From Treponema sp. (GTDB lineage: Bacteria > Spirochaetota > Spirochaetia > Treponematales > Treponemataceae), in the NCBI GenBank assembly GCA_024681195.1, contig JAILBH010000055.1:1-40001 (forward strand): a stretch of DNA of 40,001 nucleotides, read 5' to 3'. Below, one piece after another: positions 1,644 through 35,736 of this stretch (position 1 is its first letter; each line of letters starts with the position of its first letter). The translations under genes and the position numbers were made by a program. Under the pieces are notes generated by a model, which had not been told where the DNA came from, made no database searches, and worked only from the letters and a program-made list of their open reading frames with translations.

Positions 1644-1649
1644 AATGCT

Positions 1650-1678
1650 ATTATATAAAAAACAAAAAATATTGTCAT
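1650..1678 (-). promoter_or_regulatory. sigma70-type promoter of the S41 gene (-35 ATGACA, 17-bp spacer, -10 TATAAT; 6 nt to ATG)
   Basis: Reverse strand ATGACA-N17-TATAAT-AGCATT-ATG. Confidence 0.65.
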
Positions 1679-1696: not shown

Positions 1697-1775
1697 GTCC
1701 TGTCACGGAGTGGAAAACGACCTCGGACAGGTTTCTTCAGCTGGACGGGGTCGTTTTCCACGTGAGTGACAGGAC
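1697..1775. repeat. 79-bp hyphenated inverted repeat / possible MITE-like or regulatory palindrome
   Basis: GTCCTGTCAC(1697-1706)...GTGACAGGAC(1766-1775) and TGGAAAACGACC(1711-1722)...GGTCGTTTTCCA(1749-1760) are perfect complements: 22 bp in two nested stems. Confidence 0.9.
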
Positions 1776-1833
1776 CATATTAATACATATCATATTTGCA
1801 CTATCTCTTCATTTTCTATATAATACTCTCATT

Positions 1834-3030
1834 ATGGCAAAGATACAGATGAAAAATGCTATCGCCGAACTCGACGGCGATGAAATGACAAGAGTTTTGT
1901 GGAAGGTAATTAAGGACGAGCTCCTTTTGCCTTATATTGATTTGAAAACTGAATACTATGATCTTGGACTTAAGAGTCGTGATGACTCAGATGATAAAAT
2001 TACTTACGAAGCAGCTGCAGCTATCAAACGTCTTCATGTTGGTGTAAAGTGTGCAACAATCACTTCTAACCAGGCACGCGTAGAAGAATATCACCTTAAA
2101 CAGCTTACCCCTAGCCCAAACGGAATTATCCGTGCCGAGCTTGACGGTACTGTTTTCCGTGAGCCAATTTTTGTAAACAATATTCATGGAACAGTAAGCT
2201 GCTGGAAAAAGCCAATTGTTCTTGGCCGCCATGCCTACGGTGATGTTTATAAAAACTGTGAAATTAAATGTCCTACTGCAGGAAAAGCAGAGCTTGTATT
2301 TACAGGCGTAGACGGAAAAGAAATCCGTAAGACTATTATGGATATGAAGGGTCCCGGAATTATTCAGGGTATCCACAACATGGACGAATCCATCGCAAAT
2401 TTTGCACGCTGCTGCTTTACTTATGCACTCGACCGCAAGATTAGCGTATGGTTTGGTGCAAAAGACACAATCAGCAAAATCTACGACGGAACCTTTAAGG
2501 CAATTTTCCAGCAAGTGTTCGATGAAGAATACAAAGCTAAGTTTGACGCTGCAGGCATTGAATATTTTTATACCCTGATTGATGATGCCGTAGCTCGTGT
2601 TATGAGAAGCGAAGGCGGCTTTATGTGGGCAACCAAAAACTACGACGGCGACGTTATGAGCGATATGATTGCTTCTGCATGCGGCTCTCTTGCAATGATG
2701 ACCTCTGTTCTTGTAAGCCCTGACGGAAACTTTGAATATGAAGCAAGCCACGGCACAGTTCAAAAGCACTACTACCGCTACCTCAAGGGAGAAAAAACTT
2801 CTACAAACCCTGTTGCAACAATTTTTGCCTGGACCGGTGCCCTTGCAAAACGCGGTGAACTTGACGGAACTCCAGAACTGGTTGATTTTGCAAAGCGCCT
2901 CGAAAAAGCAACTCTTCAGACAATCGAAGAAGGCTACATGACAGGTGACATTGCCCGCATTGCAGACCCTGCCGCTAAAGAAGTACTTGATTCATGGCAA
3001 TTTATAGAAGCTATCAAGAACCGCCTTTAA
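1834..3030 (+). CDS. icd: NADP-dependent isocitrate dehydrogenase, eukaryotic-type subfamily
   Basis: [23 protein letters not shown]..., [59 protein letters not shown]. Start chosen at ATG 1834 rather than the ORF's upstream Met. Confidence 0.93.
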
Positions 3031-35662: not shown

Positions 35663-35736
35663 GGTGCTGTAGCTCATCTGGATAGAGCAGCTGCCTTCTA
35701 AGCAGCAGGTAGACGGTTCGAGCCCGCCCAGCATCA
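35663..35736 (+). tRNA. tRNA-Arg (anticodon UCU)
   Basis: 74-nt cloverleaf: GGTGCTG/CAGCATC acceptor, GCTC/GAGC D-stem, GCTGC-CTTCTAA-GCAGC anticodon arm, TTCGAGC T-loop. Confidence 0.93.

Follow-up and report, generated by a model that had tools for sequence, protein, structure and literature searches.

The palindrome between icd and its divergent neighbour

The window analysed here, a 40,001-nucleotide stretch of Treponema sp. DNA, raises the question of why a 79 bp palindrome (positions 1697–1775) should lie between two divergent promoters, and whether it is peculiar to this site or one of many. The flanking genes are an S41 peptidase-family gene on the minus strand (138–1643) and icd, an isocitrate dehydrogenase-family gene, on the plus strand (1834–3030). 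The location given in the original prediction, which was made from the letters of the window, was borne out: the promoter predicted for the S41 peptidase-family gene (1644–1678, minus strand) has an exact TATAAT and a −35 box with one mismatch, that of icd (1795–1825, plus strand) has TTGCAC and TATAAT, and both, which are consensus matches only, face outward from the palindrome. The gaps from the palindrome to the two −35 boxes are 18 and 19 bp (about 20 bp had been estimated) and the palindrome is outside both predicted transcripts.

A check of the letters confirmed the arrangement of nested stems, internal loop and 26-nt centre, with two corrections. On the plus strand the outer stem is a perfect 10 bp as described (5′ arm GTCCTGTCAC, 1697–1706; 3′ arm GTGACAGGAC, 1766–1775) but the inner stem, also perfect, has 13 bp rather than 12 (5′ arm GTGGAAAACGACC, 1710–1722; 3′ arm GGTCGTTTTCCAC, 1749–1761), and the asymmetry between the stems is 3/4 nt (GGA, 1707–1709; GTGA, 1762–1765) and not 4/5 nt. 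The centre (1723–1748) is an apical module that reads TCG-GA-CAG-GTTTCTTCA-GCTG-GA-CGG, with a conserved C-A-R/Y-T-G closing stem, G.A mismatches and a pyrimidine-rich loop. As had been noted, the element is richer in GC than its AT-rich surroundings (0.57 compared with 0.19 and 0.22 in the flanks) and has no U-tract next to it. Folded as RNA, the plus strand has a minimum free energy of −55.4 kcal/mol (z −8.5; none of 200 shuffles equalled it) and the minus strand one of −47.1 kcal/mol.

Copies in the host genome and its relatives

No further copy lies inside the window, so the original prediction was right on this point, and the other copies that it proposed looking for were found elsewhere in the host genome. 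BLAST searches of 59 genomes gave seven copies outside the window at E ≤ 0.01 (one weak second copy in the host genome, G000, and six in two other genomes of the same genus), which favours a dispersed repeat and rules out a singleton. A covariance model built from eight copies found 17 sites in G000 and scored in 17 of the 200 genomes of the genus, although the per-genome counts of this model are to be read as ‘at least’, at most 23 candidates having been scored in each genome. With a second model, built from 106 copies, G000 again had 17 sites, G059 about 18, G136 11 and G212 about 40 (antisense matches of the palindrome excluded). Altogether the positive genomes have between 1 and about 40 copies each. 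Sequence similarity is how most REP-like repeats come to be recognised, whereas this family is largely invisible to BLAST and emerges only with a structure model.

Across the order, covariance-model matches were confined to one of 92 genera, which rules out a wide taxonomic spread, and a scan of the class with the apical pattern returned the same genus plus one single-mismatch match elsewhere (G644). Those pattern matches that come from named records belong to Treponema MAGs, of which several are from ruminant stomachs. In a tree of icd from 28 genomes all tested short-form carriers fall in one clade (support 100/100), which also includes two genomes with only the long form (see below) and one genome without the element. 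The window palindrome is best explained as a member of a family of intergenic hairpins that are dispersed, passed on vertically and confined to one mostly-rumen Treponema clade. No Rfam family (Rfam 15) was matched above its gathering threshold, and neither Rfam nor the excerpts of open-access literature examined contain a description of the family. Elsewhere in the window a tRNA gene (35663–35736) matches RF00005 with 58 bits.

Stems that change in pairs around conserved loops

In an early alignment of the BLAST copies the unpaired positions and the central motif were held in common and both stems covaried. Among 106 distinct copies, 28 of the 29 stem pairs change on both sides and standard pairs occupy 91.7% of stem cells. 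The covariation score was 0.707, compared with 0.185 after shuffling and 0.071–0.133 with slid partners, in an alignment that was fitted to the structure and is therefore biased toward pairing; an eight-copy MAFFT alignment agrees (0.612 compared with 0.203). Compensatory change thus goes beyond the controls, as expected of a nucleic acid element conserved in structure.

The internal loop has the form G-[G/T]-A on its 5′ side, where the first G and last A are invariant in the 106 copies, and G-N-R-A on its 3′ side, where they are nearly so, which suggests that these outer residues form sheared G.A pairs. The apical module of the family is G-A-C-A-A-C...G-T-T-G-G-C (or CAGG...GCTGG) around a short pyrimidine-rich loop. 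That the stems are free to change while they remain paired, with the loops conserved but switched in sequence across a whole lineage (see below), suggests that the loops are read by something in the cell. A possible pairing of the apical loop (UCCC/UCUC) with the 3′ side of the internal loop (GGGA) was noticed and on inspection had no covariation support.

Stem mismatches are overwhelmingly of the A.G/G.A kind (188, compared with 10 C.T/T.C) and in the inner stem G.U exceeds A.C by 42 to 5 (one column pair with recurrent A.C set aside). These two asymmetries place the functional fold on one strand, here the plus strand. G.U accounts for only about 2–3% of stem pairs, a rarity suggesting that matching of the arms is maintained at the DNA level. 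Template switching is described as creating and maintaining hairpins in such a manner (PMC8794818), and the family is an example of the fast paired-arm evolution ascribed to that process.

Loop types and inheritance of individual sites

The types of apical loop include ATCATCCC and TTTCTC. The ATCA[T/C] loop is present in all 36 copies of a sub-lineage made up of G014, G216, G210, G059, G003, G212 and G208 (the last counted here though absent from the icd tree) but in only one of the 54 copies of G127, G209, G132, G025, G131, G136 and G018, most of which are TTTCTC-like; the copies of G000 are mostly ATCA-type. The probability attached to this split between sub-lineages (p = 2e-24) counts copies as independent and so overstates it, though the difference itself is clear. 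The switch is visible at several orthologous sites, e.g. L083/L131, L118/L138 and L068/L135. Whole-element gene conversion does not explain it, because no homogenisation of stems is seen within genomes. The switch is put down either to a change in a trans-acting reader, with the loops following suit, or to a mobile variant that seeded the sites anew.

By flanking sequence 36 locus pairs are orthologous, to which the pair formed by the icd loci of G000 and G212 is added. Outer-arm identity is 0.72 at orthologous loci in the same orientation and 0.40 between other copies; the corresponding values for the inner arms are 0.67 and 0.63. On these figures the outer stem is inherited locus by locus and the inner stem is nearly saturated. 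At a few orthologous loci the orientation of the element is reversed. Conservation at orthologous loci, upstream of icd in particular, had been put forward as a test. Some loci are shared, icd in G212 among them, which together with the further genomic copies favours a dispersed repeat; the icd genes of most relatives lack the element. The region upstream of icd was read in a number of positive genomes, and of these G212 alone shares the form seen in the window, while G018 has a long form and G136 has an apparent remnant.

Relation to described repeats

The family is best filed as a variant of the REP-like or stem-loop repeat kind, matched to no described family. REP or GTAG-tagged palindromes and their RAYT proteins (PMC3733652, PMC2817692 and PMC8266576) offer a close likeness, in that the palindromes are dispersed and intergenic with one strand distinguished, and have G.A mismatches and, at the base of the inner hairpin, a GGAG/GTAG tetranucleotide. 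In a REP this tag is unpaired beneath a conserved hairpin; most of the 106 copies have GGAG/GTAG, but with the last G paired and the tag within the outer stem. A REP unit, moreover, is 20–40 bp with a conserved stem, whereas our hairpins are about 80 nt with nearly every stem pair changing, enclose the tag in a further stem, conserve their loops and have no RAYT in the host. The Y1/TnpA_REP transposase (PF01797) is absent from G000 and from 12 of 16 positive genomes, including G059, which is 99% complete (G000 is 77% complete, so absences there weigh less), and a RAYT/Y1 association was rejected. The REP-like character suggested in the original prediction therefore holds for behaviour and fails for membership, since the stem and ends are unconserved as well. 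PMC2267715 describes ERIC, BIME, NEMIS and other stem-loop repeats as multi-copy intergenic hairpins of unknown function, as here; the differences are that the present family belongs to a spirochaete clade and combines complete turnover of its stems with conserved loops and interchangeable apical modules. The alternative suggestion of a MITE, which would have conserved ends flanked by target duplications, found no support: terminal inverted repeats are not conserved, as judged from the low outer-stem identity of non-orthologous copies, and no target-site duplication was found in the sister-site comparison below.

Integron attC sites are recognised as a folded strand, and their stems are variable yet paired; in both respects they resemble the hairpins described here. 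Unlike attC (RYYYAAC/GTTRRRY, in an array beside intI), the hairpins have no CATAAC/GTTATG ends and lie away from the integrases inspected. Integron integrase genes are present in 7 of 16 positive genomes and none was found in the host (77% complete). An attC origin was rejected, the model finding no element at integrase loci, attC-type ends being absent and the host having no integrase match. As a separate observation, integron integrase genes occur in several relatives (L225 and L224, G104:C31 and G059:C13), and G104 has attC-like repeats (CATAAC...GTTATG).

A hairpin that may be read through its loops

We consider it somewhat better than an even chance that the palindromes are a REP-like inherited hairpin family in which a predicted trans-acting factor reads the loops on one strand, and of which some copies are used as terminators. 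The folded hairpin, as RNA or as single-stranded or extruded DNA, would be recognised by this factor through its two loops; the stems would serve only to hold the loops in place, and template switching during replication would keep the arms matched. Copies at the ends of genes would often double as intrinsic terminators, as judged from T-tract enrichment only. The window copy belongs to neither of the predicted transcripts, so the likeliest alternatives are that it works at the DNA level (as a cruciform, or as a spacer, where divergent transcription causes negative supercoiling) or that it is merely tolerated.

Several findings fit this explanation poorly. No factor was found, the Y1 transposase being unassociated and the integron integrase inconsistently associated with the element; presence at icd is not conserved; orientation has been reversed at orthologous loci; G.U pairs are fewer than expected for an RNA under long selection; and re-seeding by a mobile variant, instead of co-evolution, could have produced the loop switch. 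We put forward only tentatively the further idea that hairpins throughout the genome co-evolve with a reader that acts in trans (a protein or an RNA), the loop code having changed in nearly all copies of one lineage while sites kept their outer stems and the apical module being swappable within a GNA/GNRA frame. With conserved loops, free stems and a loop switch throughout a lineage, the question of who reads the hairpins is testable, and pairs of genomes that differ in loop code are natural experiments.

Gene context

Gene context was assigned with a simple ORF heuristic and no annotation. On this basis the copies are mostly intergenic, and in tandem gene pairs the sense strand runs along transcription in 35 cases and against it in 12 (p = 0.001). 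Of 54 copies toward which the upstream neighbour reads, 27 are followed by a T-tract, compared with 5 of the 36 others (p = 6e-4); between divergent genes the figure is 3 of 24, and A-tracts around the copies behave symmetrically. Because T-tracts are enriched where the upstream gene reads toward the copy, many gene-end copies look like terminators. They share with intrinsic (bidirectional) terminators a long GC-rich hairpin and, in many copies 3′ of genes, the T-tract, but differ in their conserved loops, and the window copy, upstream of both genes and with no U-tract, does not qualify as an intrinsic terminator.

The sense bias and the T-tracts on the strand of the upstream gene, together with strand-specific mismatches in which G.U is preferred, argue for a cis-acting structured RNA on mRNAs, serving as a terminator or as a processing or stability hairpin. 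We regard this as possible but doubtful. A structured RNA had also been suggested in the original prediction and fits the strand-specific covariation, but the window copy, like many among the 24 that separate divergent genes, is outside predicted transcripts (as placed by weak consensus matches), G.U is low, the neighbouring genes have no apparent common function and there is no Rfam match.

Long forms, turnover and mobility

A structural scan for long hairpins with the GNA/GNRA loop gave 119 distinct matches, compared with none for four permuted loops, in DNA mostly chosen for the family but including 400 kb from G059 and as much from G060. Some 16 of the matches are longer forms (about 100–200 nt) with other apical parts, of which GAGCCGATAC...GAGGCTCACC recurs in G060, G061, G127, G143 and G212. 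The usual apical module also occurs without the internal loop (L198, L206, L207 and L208). At L099 (G132:C3, about 24.6 kb) a GGAG hairpin is nested in the apical part of hairpins with the same internal-loop motif, and L245, from 1463 (G059:C1, about 341.5 kb), is a typical copy into whose apical loop a hairpin-bearing sequence is inserted. Comparison of seven sites in the sister genomes G018 and G136 showed that where one is occupied the other has a REP dimer, remnants, a long-form relative (L326) or unrelated sequence. The dimer, of CGTC type (GTCATTGCGAGCGAAGCG...), lies at L328 (G018:C53:30000–30600) where G136 has a GGAG hairpin, and REP-like remnants (L329 and L330) lie at further sites that hold a GGAG hairpin in G136. 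Palindrome families thus replace one another at the same intergenic sites.

These nested copies and exchanges would suit a selfish, non-autonomous mobile hairpin that passes through a single-stranded DNA intermediate and inserts into hairpins or terminator loops, its enzyme having been lost or unrecognised, as would genome-specific loop types, opposite orientations at orthologous sites and inner stems that are almost unrelated where outer stems are inherited. We nevertheless think such an origin unlikely: the distribution is vertical and clade-wide, most positive genomes are without the Y1 transposase, no flanking-gene family recurs beside copies as a mobile gene, the seven sister-genome sites included no clean empty site or duplication, and exact-pattern scans of viral contigs (IMG/VR) were negative.

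A double-stranded operator through which icd and the S41 peptidase-family gene are co-regulated, also part of the original prediction, would account for the central position between the two predicted −35 boxes but is very improbable, and unlikely as a general explanation, as family copies also lie beside many unrelated genes, the conserved parts are unpaired and not palindromic, and the icd genes of most relatives are without the element.

Three minor observations concern individual sites. In L142 (G208:C96:6817–6896) the internal loop is fully paired (GCGGAGC/GCTCCGC), as quasi-palindrome correction predicts. Two long-form hairpins of about 130 nt in G060 (L164 and L172) are found some 360 bp upstream of 16S rRNA genes. 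In the window itself (1820–1836) about 9 nt separate the predicted −10 box of icd from its ATG, a spacing at which the icd mRNA may be leaderless; that at the divergent gene is similar.
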